This document shows, in pieces, positions 2,087 through 22,755 of a DNA stretch of 23,775 nucleotides. The stretch's first letter is position 1; every line of letters begins with the position of its first letter. The notes under the pieces were generated by a model. The model worked only from the letters and a program-made list of their open reading frames with translations. It did not search any database and was not told where the DNA came from. The stretch is from a virus: positions 1-23,775 of the IMG/VR virus record IMGVR_UViG_3300033388_005284, one strand, 5' to 3'. The position numbers were made by a program, and so were the translations under genes.

Positions 2087-3968
2087 TAGCTCTGTTGAGC
2101 GAGGATTAGCTCCTTTATCTGCGAATGAGCCAATTAAGGCTGATGTGTGGGCCGATAGAAACTTTTGGTTATCCGCCGAATCGTCTGGCACCACTGGTCC
2201 GTGGACTACCAGGTCTTATCAAAAAGCCATATTAAACGCGATGTCAAATGACGATGTGCGTGTTTTAACTTTCAAGAAATCTGCCCGAGTCGGGTATACA
2301 AAATTACTTCTCATCGATATCGCTTATAAGATTGTTATCAAGCGAAGAAATCAATTAATTTACCAGCCAACCGATACTGATGCCAAAGACTTTGTGAAAG
2401 ACGAAGTGGATACGATGATTCGTGACGTACCCGTGGTTGCTGAGCTGTTAAAAGCCGATCCAGACAAGCGAAGTGGAAAAAACACGCTCGGAAAAAAGCA
2501 ATTTGTTGGCACAGTGTTGGATATCAAGGGCGGGAAGTCACCTGGTAATTATCGCCGGATGACTAAGGACGATGTTAAATACGACGAGCTGGACGCCTTC
2601 GATCCTGATATCGGTAAGGGTGAAGATAAGGGCGAGGGCTCCGCCACAAGACTTGGTGACGCCAGGACTCGCCAATCATCTTTTCCAAAATCGATTCGAG
2701 GTAGTACACCGAGTATTTTGGGCGCTTCTCAGATCGATAAATCGCTTGCAGAGGCCGATGCCGTTTTTGAGCGATACATCCCCTGTCCTCACTGTGACGA
2801 ATTCCACACACTAAAATGGCGCAACATAAAATGGACTGAAGGTGACCACAAAACAACCTATTGCGTGTGCGAGGATTGCGGTAGCCCGTATGATTACAGT
2901 GACTACGAAGGCATGGACATCAAAGGCCAGTGGCGAACCACGGACGGCATGTGGATTGATGATGATGAAATGTTTCGTTCCCCGGATGATGAATATGTGG
3001 ACCCACCTTTCCATGCTGGCTTTTTTATTTGGTCAGCTTATTCATATGATTACTCATGGCAGGAGATGGTCAGAGAATTCATTCATGCCGACAAGCAGTA
3101 CAAAGAAAATGGCGATCCCTCCGCATTAAAAACATTCTGGAATACGAATCTCGGCGAATCGTATGACATGACTGGTAAAGATAGCGGTCTGGACTGGGTT
3201 AAGCTCAAAGCAAGAGCGGAGCCGTTCAAAATGTATACGGTTCCCATGAAAGGGCTTCTTTTGTCGATGGGTGTGGATACCCAGGATGATCGCTTAGAGT
3301 ATATTCTCGATGCCTGGGGTAAAGGTCAGGAGCGGTGGACCATCGGTGCCGGTGAGCTTTATGGTGACCCGGCTATGGATGGTGTTTGGAAAGAATTAAC
3401 CCTTTTGCTTGAGCGAGAATATGAGCACGCATCAGGGGCAATGCTTCGAATATCGAGCACTGCTATTGACACTGCTGGACATAGGACGCAAGCCGTATAT
3501 AATTATTGTCGAGGAAGGCCTAACGTAATAGCCATTATTGGCCGAGGCGGAATAGGTCGACCAGTGATTGGAAGGCCAACGCTTCAGGATGTCTCTGTCA
3601 TTGGCAAGACAGTCAAAGGCGGGATTAAATTATGGTCTGTTGGTGTAGAAACAACAAAGGCGATGGTTTATGCCCGTTTTTGCTTTGAAGATAAAGGGCC
3701 AGGATACCATCACTTTCCTATCGGTCTTGACGACGAATTTTATATGCAAATTGTTTCCGAAAAATTGGTTACAAAATATAAAAATGGTATTCCAAGTCAA
3801 GTATGGACAAAGACACGAGCAAGAAATGAAAAATTTGATTGTGCAAACTATTCCTATGCCGCGGCAATTAAGTTCGGCATGGAGCGTATTGACTGGGATA
3901 GTCTGGAGGCGGATATTTTAGACCTGAAGAAAGACGAAAAATCGGAGAACTGGTATTATGGCAACTAG
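2037..3968 (+). CDS. Terminase large subunit, GpA family
   Basis: ATPase and nuclease that cuts concatemeric phage DNA and drives it into the prohead. It has 643 residues, similar to lambda gpA (641). A Walker A-like motif SARVGYTK is at 82-89, the form typical of the GpA family, and a Walker B-like YDELDAFD is at about 182-189. A cysteine cluster (C250, C253, C276, C278, C281) may form a zinc site. The nuclease domain starts around MGVDTQDDRLEY (411-422) with D414, D417 and D418. The start is TTG at 2037, preceded by a strong purine-rich binding site (GAGGGAGG at 2025-2032). It overlaps the small subunit gene by 50 bases and the gpW gene by 11 bases. Confidence 0.95.
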   Translation: MQLELSQITQSLRETIDSSVERGLAPLSANEPIKADVWADRNFWLSAESSGTTGPWTTRSYQKAILNAMSNDDVRVLTFKKSARVGYTKLLLIDIAYKIVIKRRNQLIYQPTDTDAKDFVKDEVDTMIRDVPVVAELLKADPDKRSGKNTLGKKQFVGTVLDIKGGKSPGNYRRMTKDDVKYDELDAFDPDIGKGEDKGEGSATRLGDARTRQSSFPKSIRGSTPSILGASQIDKSLAEADAVFERYIPCPHCDEFHTLKWRNIKWTEGDHKTTYCVCEDCGSPYDYSDYEGMDIKGQWRTTDGMWIDDDEMFRSPDDEYVDPPFHAGFFIWSAYSYDYSWQEMVREFIHADKQYKENGDPSALKTFWNTNLGESYDMTGKDSGLDWVKLKARAEPFKMYTVPMKGLLLSMGVDTQDDRLEYILDAWGKGQERWTIGAGELYGDPAMDGVWKELTLLLEREYEHASGAMLRISSTAIDTAGHRTQAVYNYCRGRPNVIAIIGRGGIGRPVIGRPTLQDVSVIGKTVKGGIKLWSVGVETTKAMVYARFCFEDKGPGYHHFPIGLDDEFYMQIVSEKLVTKYKNGIPSQVWTKTRARNEKFDCANYSYAAAIKFGMERIDWDSLEADILDLKKDEKSENWYYGN

Positions 3969-4182
3969 CGCACAATTAGCTATCTGGCTAGATGAGGCGG
4001 AGGCCGCGCTACATGCCTTGCAGATCGGTGAGGCTGCTGTACAGGTTAGCGGTGAAGGTCGAACAGTTATTTATAATCAGGCTAGCGTCACGGAACTCAA
4101 GCAATATATTGGGAGCCTAAAAGATCAGATCGCGGGTTATTCCTCCGCTCCAATTAGTTTAGTCCGGAATCTAGGGGGTTAG
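3958..4182 (+). CDS. Head-tail joining protein, gpW-like
   Basis: A 74-residue protein that matches the gpW family, a small connector component that sits on the portal after packaging and is needed for tail attachment. Visible family traits are a first helix with the alternating pattern DEAEAALHALQIGEA, a short beta hairpin (VQVSGEGRTVIYN), then SVTELKQYIGSLKDQI, which parallels the lambda segment before its C-terminal tail. Its position between the large terminase and portal genes is exactly that of W in lambda. It overlaps the terminase end by 11 bases and is separated by one base from the portal start. Confidence 0.88.
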   Translation: MATSAQLAIWLDEAEAALHALQIGEAAVQVSGEGRTVIYNQASVTELKQYIGSLKDQIAGYSSAPISLVRNLGG

Positions 4183-4183
4183 C

Positions 4184-5761
4184 ATGGCCAAGAAAAGTCG
4201 CGCAAAAAGAAAGGCGGCAAAGATGTCGGCCGAATCAAGTATTTACGCAGAGAACCATAATGCTGGTGGTTTTTCCATTGATGGCATTTCAAGCTGGATT
4301 CCTCAGTTAACATCGCCTGATAACGAGATGGATGGCGAGCGTGAAACGATGGTTGCTCGTCAACAGGATCTGGAACGCAATGACAGCATTGTATCAGGCC
4401 TTATTCAAACCAATGTTGATAACATACTCACCTCATCTTTCACCTTATCCTCTCGAATCGATTATCGTGCCTTGGGTTATGATAAAGAATGGGCCGATAA
4501 GAAAGGGAAGGAAATTGAGGCTTTGTGGCGCCCATATGCGGACTCAGTTGAAATGGATGCCGCTAGAATTCACAATTTTCATGGATTAACTGATCAATTT
4601 TTGCGCTCTGGCTTAACGTATGGCGAAGGCGCGGCACTTCCTCATTACATGAGGGGTCGAAAATTTAGAACAACGATTCAAATGATCGACCCAATGCGTA
4701 TAACCACGCCTATTGCTATGTCTAACGACGTTATGGTTCAAGATGGCGTGCGGATAAACACTTATGGCGAAGAGACGATGGTTTATGTCCAGAAAGCGCA
4801 TCCTGCCGACATGTATGCGATTAACGAATGGGAATCTATCCCGATGCGCAATCGGTTTGGCAGGGCTAAATTCATTCGTGCGGTTGATAGAAAGCGTGTC
4901 GGTCAGCGCAGAGGCAAACCATTAGCCACTGCAATAATGTCTTTGTTGAAAATGAGGAATAAGGCATACAACATTGAGCTTGAATCTGTTGTCGCTAATT
5001 CAATTGTCTCTGCAGTGGCACAAACCAGTATGTCTGCTGAAGATCTTGCCAGTGCTTTTGGTAATAGCGCAGATAAATTTATTGATGCGCGGAAGCAGTG
5101 GGAGCCATCGATATCGGGTGGCGGAAAAATAATTCAATTACCCCCGGGTGAGGAATTAAAACCTTTTGCGCCATCAAGACCAAATACGGCTTTCCCTTAT
5201 TTCATGGAGCAATTAGCAAAACAATTATCTACTGGCGTCAATATTCCTTATGAATTATTGATGAAAGATTTTTCAAATGTAAATTATTCCTCTGCAAGAG
5301 CAGCTTTATTGGAAGCCTGGCGATTTTTCATGAGCAAGCGCCGATGGTTGTCTGATTATTGGGCAACGCCGGTTTTCTCGCTATGGCTAGAAGAGGTTGT
5401 CGAGCGAGGATTAATTGATCTACCTGGCTTCCGGGATAACAAAACATCGTATTGCCGCGCTAGATGGATAGGCGCTGGTCGCGGCTGGGTTGATCCGGTC
5501 AAAGAGGTCAAAGCAGCTCAAATGCGTATCGAGATGGGCGTTTCGACTTACGAGGACGAATGTGCCGAGCAGGGTAAAGACTGGGAAGAAGTGTTTGAGC
5601 AGCGTTCACGCGAAAATATCTACGCTGATACTTTAGGGCTAAAACTACAGAGCGGCGTTCTTGAGAGCGTTACACCTGAATCACAAATGGAAGATGAGGA
5701 AGAAGAAAATGTCCCGAGCACTGACAAGACTGATGGCCGAAACGTGGGCAATACAACCTAG
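4184..5761 (+). CDS. Portal protein, lambda gpB family
   Basis: The 525-residue portal forms the ring at one head vertex through which DNA enters and leaves. Features of the lambda portal family are an N-terminal basic segment (KKSRAKRKAAK), the RQQDLERNDSIVSGLIQTNVDN region near residues 60-85, and a central portion with IDPMRI. The segment PYELLMKDFSNVNYSSARAALLE (about residues 355-378) is a hallmark of the family. The C-terminus is acidic (EDEEEENV) and overlaps the start of the prohead protease by 53 bases in another frame. Lambda gpB has 533 residues, so the length fits well. Confidence 0.93.
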   Translation: MAKKSRAKRKAAKMSAESSIYAENHNAGGFSIDGISSWIPQLTSPDNEMDGERETMVARQQDLERNDSIVSGLIQTNVDNILTSSFTLSSRIDYRALGYDKEWADKKGKEIEALWRPYADSVEMDAARIHNFHGLTDQFLRSGLTYGEGAALPHYMRGRKFRTTIQMIDPMRITTPIAMSNDVMVQDGVRINTYGEETMVYVQKAHPADMYAINEWESIPMRNRFGRAKFIRAVDRKRVGQRRGKPLATAIMSLLKMRNKAYNIELESVVANSIVSAVAQTSMSAEDLASAFGNSADKFIDARKQWEPSISGGGKIIQLPPGEELKPFAPSRPNTAFPYFMEQLAKQLSTGVNIPYELLMKDFSNVNYSSARAALLEAWRFFMSKRRWLSDYWATPVFSLWLEEVVERGLIDLPGFRDNKTSYCRARWIGAGRGWVDPVKEVKAAQMRIEMGVSTYEDECAEQGKDWEEVFEQRSRENIYADTLGLKLQSGVLESVTPESQMEDEEEENVPSTDKTDGRNVGNTT

Positions 5762-20053: not shown

Positions 20054-20800
20054 ATGCTGAGAGCAAAAACATCATTTGATAGAGATAATGCACGATACCT
20101 AGTTGATTTATCAAAACTAGCCTATTCTAGCGAATCAAACATAAAATCCTATCTCAATAAATACCATATCGACTTCGTCGAAAACGCAGAAACAGACACC
20201 CAGTGCTTTATTGTCACCGATGATAAAAACCTGATCATCATCTTTCGCGGATCATCCAATTTAGATGACTGGATAACTAACTTCAAAATTGACAAGGTCC
20301 GTCACAGCTTCACTCAACATGAAGGATTTTACGAAGCGTACCAATCTGTACAGAGCGCCATCTTCAATACTGCAAGTAAAAATAAGACAAAAAACATATT
20401 TATAGCAGGCCACTCATTAGGTGGCGCCCTAGCCTCTCTATGTGCCGTGGATCTCCATATGCTGCTAGATACTCCTGTTACATCTTGTTATACATTTGGG
20501 TCTCCACGGGTATACGACGCCGTGTCAGCAAGTAATATCAACGACATCATGGGTGACCGCATTCATCGTGTAGTTAACAATAACGACATCGTTACTCACA
20601 TGCCGTCCGAAAAACTTAACTTTTCCCATATTGGCGAATTAGCTTATTTTGAAGAAAACGGCACATTACACGTAAACGAGGACTTTACCTGGTGGCAGAA
20701 AAAACGCTATGCATTAGTAGGAAGGTTGGATGATTTGTTCGAACCGGGAACCGATGGTGTGAAAGATCATCTCATTAGTGAGTATGACGATTATGTTTGA
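20054..20800 (+). CDS. Class 3 lipase / esterase (alpha/beta hydrolase)
   Basis: A 248-residue class 3 lipase. The nucleophile elbow is GHSLGG with Ser121. The probable triad is completed by Asp178 (NNNDIVTHMP) and His239 (VKDHLISEY). An oxyanion segment IIIFRGSSNLDDWITN is at about 61-76, and TFGSPRV (147-153) is typical of the family. No signal peptide is seen, so the enzyme would stay in the cytoplasm until a holin lets it out. It follows two small membrane proteins, in the usual place of an endolysin, with AGGAG seven bases before the ATG. It may attack membrane lipid during lysis. Substrate and role are inferred, not shown. Confidence 0.88.
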   Translation: MLRAKTSFDRDNARYLVDLSKLAYSSESNIKSYLNKYHIDFVENAETDTQCFIVTDDKNLIIIFRGSSNLDDWITNFKIDKVRHSFTQHEGFYEAYQSVQSAIFNTASKNKTKNIFIAGHSLGGALASLCAVDLHMLLDTPVTSCYTFGSPRVYDAVSASNINDIMGDRIHRVVNNNDIVTHMPSEKLNFSHIGELAYFEENGTLHVNEDFTWWQKKRYALVGRLDDLFEPGTDGVKDHLISEYDDYV

Positions 20801-20819: not shown

Positions 20820-20980
20820 GATTTTTCTTTAGCTTTTTCTACATAACTCTTATTTTCCTCTAAATATTTCTTTGCCGCATTAACATACACATCAGTCATC
20901 GACTTATTACCCAAACGACCAACTAAATACCTTAGTTGGTCGTCTATCTCCTTCGGGATATGTAACAATCGTTTTTTCAA
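20816..20980 (-). CDS. Ribbon-helix-helix protein overlapping rsr
   Basis: A 54-residue gene with a TTG start whose first bases overlap the rsr stop (TTGA), indicating translational coupling. The protein has the layout of Arc/CopG-type DNA-binding proteins: a short N-terminal strand (KKRLLHIP), a first helix (KEIDDQLRYLVGRLG), the turn NKSMTD, and a second helix (VYVNAAKKYLEENK) with a charged tail. Such proteins dimerise and insert the paired strands in the major groove, often repressing their own operon. Codons look normal and the frame is open to a TAA at 20816. Its target could be the ATATAACG boxes at the operon promoter; that link is inference. Confidence 0.72.
   Translation of the reverse strand: MKKRLLHIPKEIDDQLRYLVGRLGNKSMTDVYVNAAKKYLEENKSYVEKAKEKS
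20916..20942. repeat. Perfect 10-base inverted repeat inside the RHH gene
   Basis: CGACCAACTA at 20916-20925 and TAGTTGGTCG at 20933-20942 are exact inverted copies with a 7-base loop. In RNA this makes a stable hairpin within the coding region. It has no U run, so it is not a classic terminator. It could slow 3' decay of the operon transcript or be a DNA-binding site. Confidence 0.7.
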
Positions 20981-22362
20981 GAAAGTTCCGGCTCCGGCTC
21001 CGATTCTGATTCACGAATATAATCCACTATCGCCTCACTAAAGCCGTCGATATGCCGCCATCCACCATAACCTACACCATTTTTACATGATGAAACATTA
21101 ACTAGGTAGCCTTTCTTTTTTGGGTTTGGCACCTTATCTTCTGACTGCTCATCAGTGAATACAACAAGCCGATCATAATCAAGTTTATTGATTTCCTTGA
21201 CCGCCTTGCCGAGCTGAGTGGCTCCAAACTTCATTGATGATAATATTGCGTCACATAAAGCCATTCCCGATCTGTTCGGCACTTCAGCCAAAAGCTTAAA
21301 GCCATTGGCTGCTGTATATCCCTGTCTCTGATGTTGCGGGAAATCATTCATGTCTGCAGCAAATGAAAAAATCCTGATATCATCGCAAATTCCTCTCATT
21401 AAAACAGCCAGCGCACAGGCCGCATCAAAACGGCTTAGGTCTGACTTATTAGATAATTTGTCAGTCATCGACTGAGAATGATCAATCATAAGTACCGTTC
21501 TGCCTTTTAGCTTCACAGCACCCTCAAGCGCCAGAATCATCGCTTTATCAACAGATGCCTCCCACGCAGGAACCGCCCTTGCTGCCGCAATAAATCGAAA
21601 TGGTAGTGCTTTTGATTTTGATGCGCTGCCGAGCAATCTATTTTCGACCACCTTTCGATCAACACCAGACTCATGCATATTTCTCAAGTTTTTAAGCAGC
21701 GCCATGTAGCCGAGCTTATTTTCCGTCAAGAGACGTGTGAAGACTTCTCTTTTGTTTGCACCGCCGGACAATGCGACTTCCCAAGTATCAGGGGTCTCTA
21801 GTTTTTTATCCTTTAATTTTTTCCACAACGCTGCTTGCTCATCATCCTTTGGCTTTGCATGACAGAGAAATAAAACGTCTCGCAACTTAACTGGCTTGTC
21901 TCGGTTATATTTAGCTAAAGCATATTCACTGAATTTATTAAATGCTTTAGCTAAACCCTTTTTTACTTGGCCGCTCAATGGCTGCCTGCCTTCAGCCCAG
22001 TAAATCGACAAGAATTCAGTTAAGTCATCGGCCCGAGTAATTGTATCGTTTATCACGCCAGAAATAAGGGCGCGCTCGCGAACGCCAGCATGTCGAGCCA
22101 ACTCTCTAGCTAAAAACAAAGGTACGTGGCGGAGCTTGTATTTTATCTTAGCCTCAACCGCAAGTTCAGCTAACTCATCAGCAGTGACCTTATGCGCCAG
22201 ATCTTTAATTCTGTCAGCAACAGAAATGCCATCTTCATAGAAAGTTTTTTCCCATAAAAGGCAGGATAAAACAGTTCGTCTTAATTCCTGGTAAGGTGAA
22301 ATGTGATGCGCTTTCGCACCTTGGTGAGTAAAAGTTTGAACTCGCTTGTTTGTAGTCGCCAT
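20977..22362 (-). CDS. rsr: Ro60/Rsr ortholog (TROVE and vWA domains)
   Basis: A 461-residue ring-type RNA-binding protein of the Ro60 family. The N-terminal two thirds (about 15-280) are alpha-helical repeats of the TROVE domain, with segments such as VPLFLARELARHAGVRERAL and KLRDVLFLCHAKP. The C-terminal part (about 285-450) is a von Willebrand A domain with the metal site DHSQS at 294-298 and FTDE at 402-405. In Ro60 proteins the ring holds misfolded RNA ends and its outer face binds Y RNA; in Deinococcus, Y RNA links Rsr to PNPase. I start at the ATG at 22362, with GGAG 6 bases upstream, rather than the ATG at 22374, which overlaps that site. Two Y RNA-like genes lie just upstream, and a small DNA-binding protein overlaps its end. 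Confidence 0.93.
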   Translation of the reverse strand: MATTNKRVQTFTHQGAKAHHISPYQELRRTVLSCLLWEKTFYEDGISVADRIKDLAHKVTADELAELAVEAKIKYKLRHVPLFLARELARHAGVRERALISGVINDTITRADDLTEFLSIYWAEGRQPLSGQVKKGLAKAFNKFSEYALAKYNRDKPVKLRDVLFLCHAKPKDDEQAALWKKLKDKKLETPDTWEVALSGGANKREVFTRLLTENKLGYMALLKNLRNMHESGVDRKVVENRLLGSASKSKALPFRFIAAARAVPAWEASVDKAMILALEGAVKLKGRTVLMIDHSQSMTDKLSNKSDLSRFDAACALAVLMRGICDDIRIFSFAADMNDFPQHQRQGYTAANGFKLLAEVPNRSGMALCDAILSSMKFGATQLGKAVKEINKLDYDRLVVFTDEQSEDKVPNPKKKGYLVNVSSCKNGVGYGGWRHIDGFSEAIVDYIRESESEPEPELS

Positions 22363-22382
22363 AATGTTCTCCATTAGGAATT

Positions 22383-22514
22383 AAAAAAGGGTCGCCAAGG
22401 ATGGACTCGAACCACCGACATCAAGATTGAAGTAACTGCAATCTTCGCCACCTTTCGGGGGATAATCGATTACAGTAGAGGGTTCTTGTGATCTCCCAAC
22501 TGATCTACTTGGCG
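22383..22514 (-). ncRNA. yrlA: YrlA-like Y RNA with tRNA-like domain, copy 1 (nearest rsr)
   Basis: On the minus strand, 22514 to 22392 folds as a tRNA mimic. The acceptor stem is CGCCAAG with CTTGGCG (22508-22514 and 22393-22399). The D arm is GATC, loop AGTTGGGA, GATC. The T arm is GGTGG, TTCGAGT, CCATC (22400-22416). An A follows, then CCC and a run of six T. The anticodon arm is replaced by a 73-base insert. CAAGA and TCTTG can pair at its base, and an 8-base stem (22468-22475 with 22436-22443) encloses a GAAA hairpin and GTGGCG. TTACTTCAAT follows the stem. This matches YrlA-class Y RNAs, which lie next to rsr and bind Ro60. No CCA is encoded. The RNA ends 21 bases before the rsr start. 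Confidence 0.85.
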
Positions 22515-22546: not shown

Positions 22547-22683
22547 AAAAAAAAGGGGCTAGTGGTCGGACTCGAACCGACGACCACGTCATTAGCATTG
22601 AAGTAACTCTATTCTACGCCACTAAAAAGGGAATAATCGAAAAGAGAGATTATCGCGCTCTAACCAACTGAGCTACACTAGCC
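22547..22683 (-). ncRNA. yrlA: YrlA-like Y RNA with tRNA-like domain, copy 2
   Basis: On the minus strand, 22683 to 22557 forms an 8-bp acceptor stem (GGCTAGTG with CACTAGCC), a canonical D arm (GCTC, AGTTGGTTA, GAGC) and a perfect T arm (GTCGG, TTCGAGT, CCGAC). Then come CC and a run of eight T (22547-22554). The anticodon arm is replaced by a longer insert with the same core as copy 1. An 8-base stem (22639-22646 with 22607-22614, one U-U mismatch) encloses GATTATTCCC and GTGGCG and is followed by TTACTTCAAT. The D-loop GG and T-loop TTC needed for the tRNA elbow are present. The T arm and acceptor followed by T8 could also end transcription. Confidence 0.87.
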
Positions 22684-22687
22684 AATG

Positions 22688-22755
22688 TAACGAAGGAATT
22701 AACTAGACCCGGATTATTTCCCCAAGAAGTAACGGTATCTATTCGCCATTCGTTA
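22688..22755 (-). ncRNA. Candidate third Y RNA without tRNA domain (operon leader)
   Basis: The leader carries the same core as the two YrlA-like RNAs: TGGCG, a 10-base spacer, then GTTACTTC (the others have 9 bases between). Its ends, TAACGAA (22755-22749) and TTCGTTA (22694-22688), pair perfectly over 7 bp. Inside, UAGA can pair with UCUA, with short GG/CC and CC/GG helices on either side. The predicted transcription start falls at about 22755, exactly the first base of the terminal stem. The RNA ends 4 bases before the acceptor stem of copy 2, where RNase P might cut. Y RNAs of animals and some bacteria have such a terminal stem. By-eye folding only. Confidence 0.5.

Follow-up and report, generated by a model that had tools for sequence, protein, structure and literature searches.

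What is transcribed between the promoter and the first tRNA-like RNA of a phage operon that encodes its own Ro60 protein? We addressed this question for the virus record IMGVR_UViG_3300033388_005284, of which positions 1 to 23,775 (23.8 kb, hereafter the window) were analysed, and which belongs to a tailed phage with lambda-type terminase and portal genes as identified with Pfam. On its minus strand the window carries an operon in the order promoter, leader, YrlA1, YrlA2 and rsr, the last of these (20977..22374) encoding a Ro60/TROVE protein of 465 aa (Pfam TROVE, 63 bits) with 45-55% identity to other phage Rsr proteins. The leader is encoded beside this Ro60/Rsr (TROVE) gene, which lies about 310 nt downstream. 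A hairpin resembling an intrinsic terminator (22836..22853, minus strand) divides the operon from the upstream genes. Upstream of the operon, the minus strand also contains two small ORFs (22949-23305 and 23316-23549), both without a Pfam match, and a gene for a class 3 lipase domain protein (20054-20800, plus strand) is convergent with rsr. The existence of Y RNAs without a tRNA-like domain (TLR) is implied by the literature, in which each species is described as having one or more Y RNAs with a TLR, so that others need not contain it. An earlier note had proposed that the leader is such an RNA, a Y RNA of canonical form without tRNA domain at the start of the operon, and based on the sequence evidence described below we consider this identity very probable.

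The leader occupies 68 nt on the minus strand (22688..22755) and consists of two stems separated by an internal loop. The terminal stem (stem 1) is formed by TAACGAA (22749..22755) and TTCGTTA (22688..22694) and, as had been claimed, is Watson-Crick paired at 7/7 positions when checked base by base. It is followed by the 5' internal element TGGCGAA (22742..22748), matching the consensus TGGYGWA of 48 relatives introduced below, and by the inner stem (stem 2), in which the 5' strand TAGAT-A-CCG (22733..22741) makes 8 pairs with CGGGTCTA (22704..22711), a strand supported by both a shuffle test and a base-by-base check, leaving A22736 bulged. The apical motif GTTACTTC (22726..22733) contains the TACTTC that is invariant or nearly so in the 48 relatives, and a third conserved element, absent from the earlier note, is the 3' internal element GTTAATTCC (22695..22703, consensus GYTTRTTCC), which directly precedes the 3' strand of the terminal stem. 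All 15/15 pairs of the two stems are intact, and between GTTACTTC and the 3' element there is no D arm, T arm or acceptor. Y RNA 5' and 3' ends are known to pair in an extended stem (PMC6181284, PMC8394870); the leader has such an extended terminal stem, together with the motifs of the Ro60 site and the inner stem. The core previously described as common to the leader and both YrlA copies does recur in all three as TGGCG and GTTACTTC, but the 10-nt spacer between these motifs is a property of the leader only, since both YrlA copies and most relatives have 9 nt; the extra base is the bulged A at 22736.

The terminal stem begins where transcription is predicted to start. The sigma70-type promoter (22762..22790, minus strand) has a -35 box TTGACA (22790-22785), a 17-nt spacer and a -10 box TATATT (22767-22762), matches at 11/12 positions and is the best sigma70 match in 2.9 kb. 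From the end of the -10 box to 22755 there are 7 nt, in agreement with the earlier placement of the start at the first base of the stem, a start at 22756 or 22754 being equally possible. At the other end, the distance of 4 bases to the next RNA holds if the YrlA1 acceptor is taken as 8 bp (GGCTAGTG/CACTAGCC) and becomes 5 nt with the usual 7-bp acceptor aligned by Rfam; a full-length fold retains the leader hairpin, a CAUU spacer and the 8-bp acceptor. Chance occurrence of motif and stem was assessed by shuffling. When the window was dinucleotide-shuffled 300 times, the core with a stem of at least 4 bp occurred on average 0.047 times per window and the core with a 7-bp stem 0 times. When the middle of the leader alone was shuffled, TTNRTTCC was found in place in 0.025% of shuffles, and an 8-bp inner stem together with TTNRTTCC in place in 5/100,000 (5e-5). 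The folding energy of the leader is ordinary (z -0.3), and minimum free energy was dropped as evidence.

To obtain an independent description of this RNA type, we gathered Rsr homologues in viral contigs, sequenced phages, plasmids and one Gammaproteobacterial MAG, and scanned their flanks with a motif descriptor that demanded the core and a stem 1 of 4 bp or more and left stem 2 free. TLR-less Y RNAs of 61-95 nt proved common in these rsr flanks, with the element order stem 1, TGGYGWAG, stem 2, YTACTTC, loop, stem 2', GYTTRTTCC and stem 1', all of which the leader has. With the window excluded, 48 of these RNAs from other rsr loci were aligned and used to build a covariance model, R1; in this alignment a few rows are misaligned on the 3' side (e.g. 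those of loci L015 and L049). Both stems covary strongly in the 48 relatives, with standard pairs in 84% of cells compared to 37-50% when the partner is slid, and two-sided changes in 14/14 pairs; for stem 1 this covariation is partly circular because the descriptor selected on at least 4 bp of it, a circularity of which stem 2 is free. R1 scores the leader at 40.4 bits (E 8.7e-11) with 14/14 model pairs standard, compared to 21.5 and 14.2 bits for the YrlA copies and 11.1 bits for the best unrelated site in the window. As the YrlA copies contain the same core in another order and score lower, about 20 bits come from the structure and the 3' element and not from the core. R1 matches were present in 55/57 rsr loci searched, of which some had supplied training sequences and many had not, and every match was on the rsr strand.

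These results bear on the reading that the leader is a decayed, functionless YrlA copy that lost its tRNA-like domain. The leader does depart from the consensus by one bulge and the 10-nt spacer; against decay, every element is in place with 15/15 stem pairs, and this position is often occupied by TLR-less Y RNAs whose stems covary, which makes this reading very improbable. A close relative of the leader that could inform on within-species conservation was not found. Blastn in phages returned short matches only, all in the tRNA-like part, and a single-protein search of genome contigs yielded one locus only. In a viral contig locus (L072:2605-2670) the whole apical loop, TACTTCTTGGGGAAATAATCC, is identical to that of the leader, with stem sequences that differ yet pair, and an exact search for TACTTCTTGGGGAAATAATCC in viral contigs returned this contig only.

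Known RNA families do not describe the leader. RF02553 (YrlA) reaches only 17.7 of the 69 bits set as cut-off, and its register straddles the leader and YrlA1; RF01053 (Deinococcus Y RNA) has no match up to E 10. Neither T-box or attenuator families nor other cis-regulatory Rfam families match at the leader, which argues against an ordinary regulatory leader of the T-box or attenuator kind. A leader peptide could be suspected, as a short ORF (ATG at 22749, MANRYRYFLGK) begins 6 nt past the predicted start; this distance is too short for a ribosome-binding site, the ATG is present only because stem 1 ends in A, and 41/48 relatives have a G-C pair at this site, so that the start codon is not conserved. 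We therefore give hardly any credence to a regulatory leader of these types.

The position of the leader at a predicted promoter is itself recurrent. Within an array, the TLR-less Y RNA that comes first has a sigma70 match of at least 8/12 at its start in 34% of 47 cases, compared to 6% of 32 inner TLR-less copies and 3.6% of random places (p 6e-10 versus random places, 2e-5 versus inner copies); the promoter of locus L094 is perfect and those of L014, L057, L095 and the window score 11/12. Since first copies often begin at predicted sigma70 starts, the coincidence of motif, stem and start in the leader represents a recurrent arrangement.

The adjacent RNAs differ from typical Y RNAs in another way. 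YrlA1 (22557..22682, minus strand) is a TLR Y RNA with an open acceptor GCTAGTG/CACTAGC, in which the Y module takes the position of the anticodon arm and the Y stem 1 is capped by UUUU. YrlA2 (22392..22514, minus strand) likewise has an open acceptor, CGCCAAG/CTTGGCG, with Y stem 1 capped by GAAA. The Y inner stem occurs in swapped order, with 7/8 pairs in YrlA1 and 8/8 pairs in YrlA2 (CTGTAATC/GATTGCAG). Both RNAs thus have a true tRNA order, a circular permutation that is the reverse of the canonical YrlA. The Salmonella Y RNA structure 6CU1 is a circular permutation of tRNA (PMC11472068), and the TLR Y RNAs of the relatives are almost always of this canonical form, with open Y ends, circularly permuted tRNA order and a capped acceptor, the cap being mostly a tetraloop (UUCG, GCAA or GAAA, for example). 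In line with the true tRNA order, Rfam reads YrlA1 as tRNA (45.3 bits) and as YrlA with only 17.7 bits; ARAGORN detected no tRNA in the window. A canonical register in which the leader is fused with half of YrlA1 was considered and ruled out, since the leader has no T arm and each acceptor pairs inside its own unit. Among the loci examined, other convincing open-acceptor forms were found only in crAss-like phages (L015, L097-L099, L102 and L103); open-acceptor calls in L002, L004, L026, L051, L056 and L070 look spurious, with no proper D arm after the acceptor. T runs lie directly 3' of the YrlA acceptors, at 22556-22548 (TTTTTTTT) and 22390-22385 (TTTTTT, minus strand), and could cause partial transcription end and so a higher ratio of Y RNA to rsr mRNA.

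Comparison with known systems places the leader within a wider family. It has in common with YrlA (RF02553; Salmonella YrlA, PDB 6CU1) the Ro60-binding Y module (terminal stem, GGCGAA, TTACTTC), and differs from it in that YrlA has a D arm, T arm and acceptor. A TLR-less Y RNA on plasmid P2 of Deinococcus gobiensis (L106:1741-1810) resembles the leader in stems, internal loop elements and length and likewise sits before a TLR Y RNA and rsr; R1 assigns it 51.1 bits even though it is outside the training set and fails the motif filter, whereas RF01053 gives merely 15 bits (cut-off 80). It differs in its apical TTCCTTC and in its TLR neighbour, which is canonical with open Y ends and a capped acceptor and scores 49.6 bits as YrlA in Rfam, compared to 17.7 bits for YrlA1 of the window. 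Deinococcus is the genus of D. radiodurans, of which the Y RNA/Rsr/PNPase complex was studied experimentally. Both D. gobiensis Y RNAs, the TLR-less one and the canonical YrlA, lie between a transposase gene and rsr (L106:1741-1944) and are unannotated in the table examined.

In phages, a leader-like architecture is found at L072:2605-2670, in the Microcystis phage Mvi-JY20 (L014:3892-3959) and in the Caulobacter phage CcrColossus (L013:1262-1342), where, unlike in the window with its tRNA-ended copies, canonical YrlA copies come next; several phage TLR-less Y RNAs with this architecture start at a predicted promoter start. Nearest in layout are crAss001 and its relatives (L097, L098, L099, L015), in which a TLR-less Y RNA is followed after about 4-12 nt by a TLR Y RNA with open acceptor. 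The TLR-less Y RNA of crAss001 (L097) has a 7-bp stem ATGCCAT/ATGGCAT and ends 5 nt before the open acceptor, nearly the layout of the window, but in this group the Y RNAs are downstream of rsr and the Rsr is about 37% identical to that of the window. In L097 (crAss001, 3944-4530), and also in L015, L098 and L099, the Y RNAs that follow the TROVE gene, both the TLR-less and the tRNA-ended ones, are unannotated. A contig of the Gammaproteobacterial MAG (L008:1819-3000) carries a tandem array of at least 8 Y RNAs upstream of rsr, several of which end in a T run. The leader adds an example to a type that dozens of other phages carry next to their Ro60 genes. Together, the R1 score, the covariation, the third conserved element and the recurrence in phages with rsr and on a Deinococcus plasmid sustain the proposal of a canonical-form Y RNA lacking a tRNA domain at the start of this operon.

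As to how the leader would be made and used, we propose that transcription begins at 22755 +/- 1 at the predicted promoter, that RNase P cuts the 5' end of YrlA1 near 22683/22682 (with the 7-bp acceptor) and so frees the leader, and that exonuclease trimming of the 3' end would halt at the terminal stem, leaving an RNA of about 68-73 nt. With YrlA1 and YrlA2 in true tRNA order, the array would be separated into its RNAs by the tRNA-processing machinery of the host, with RNase P acting at the 5' end. Release of the leader by RNase P is consistent with the open YrlA1 acceptor and the layout in crAss001, and we put its chances at about even. In Listeria phage CKA15, three highly transcribed regions at most 2 kb from an Rsr homologue were proposed to be Y RNAs (PMC12282133); CKA15 is unrelated to the window phage, and these abundant short transcripts near Rsr make expression of the leader plausible.

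The ring of the phage Rsr would then bind the terminal stem and internal loop of the leader, in the way that other Y RNAs are bound by Ro60. We consider such binding likely, and that the leader is both a TLR-less Y RNA and bound by Rsr is, on sequence grounds, likely to the same degree. The Y RNA of D. radiodurans contacts Rsr through its stem and PNPase through a region of two hairpins, one of which is T-arm-like (PMC6181284). Lacking a TLR, the leader would be unable to tether PNPase in the known way, and our best guess, offered tentatively, is that it stably occupies or gates Rsr, blocking or buffering the ring, while YrlA1 and YrlA2 may tether an exonuclease or another tRNA-binding partner. 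A different possibility is that no separate RNA matters and that the Y-like hairpin remains part of the nascent operon transcript as a cis element, where binding of Rsr feeds back on processing or expression. The location of the leader at the 5' end of an operon encoding its own binding protein and the lack of a terminator between the leader and YrlA1 would fit such feedback; conversely, copies in relatives are also found inside arrays, after TLR copies, as the final RNA ahead of rsr (L001) and on the downstream side of rsr (L014, L015, L097), positions that a role purely as leader leaves unexplained. We regard an exclusive cis role as unlikely; release of the leader and feedback in cis are compatible with each other.

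If the leader is such a Y RNA, one promoter supplies the phage Ro60 with two Y RNA classes, only one of which is able to tether a tRNA-binding partner. R1 provides a searchable model for TLR-less Y RNAs; Rfam reported none of them at the loci tested, and even crAss001 and other sequenced phages lack annotations for them. Less expected are the tRNA-ordered neighbours and their potential link to processing by RNase P. These could reflect a rewired Y RNA system, in which TLR Y RNAs were permuted back to tRNA order and the same RNase P cut frees the leader, in crAss-like phages likewise, a scenario to which we assign slightly less than an even chance. If the processing idea is true, the maturation of viral Y RNAs would be determined by RNase P of the host.
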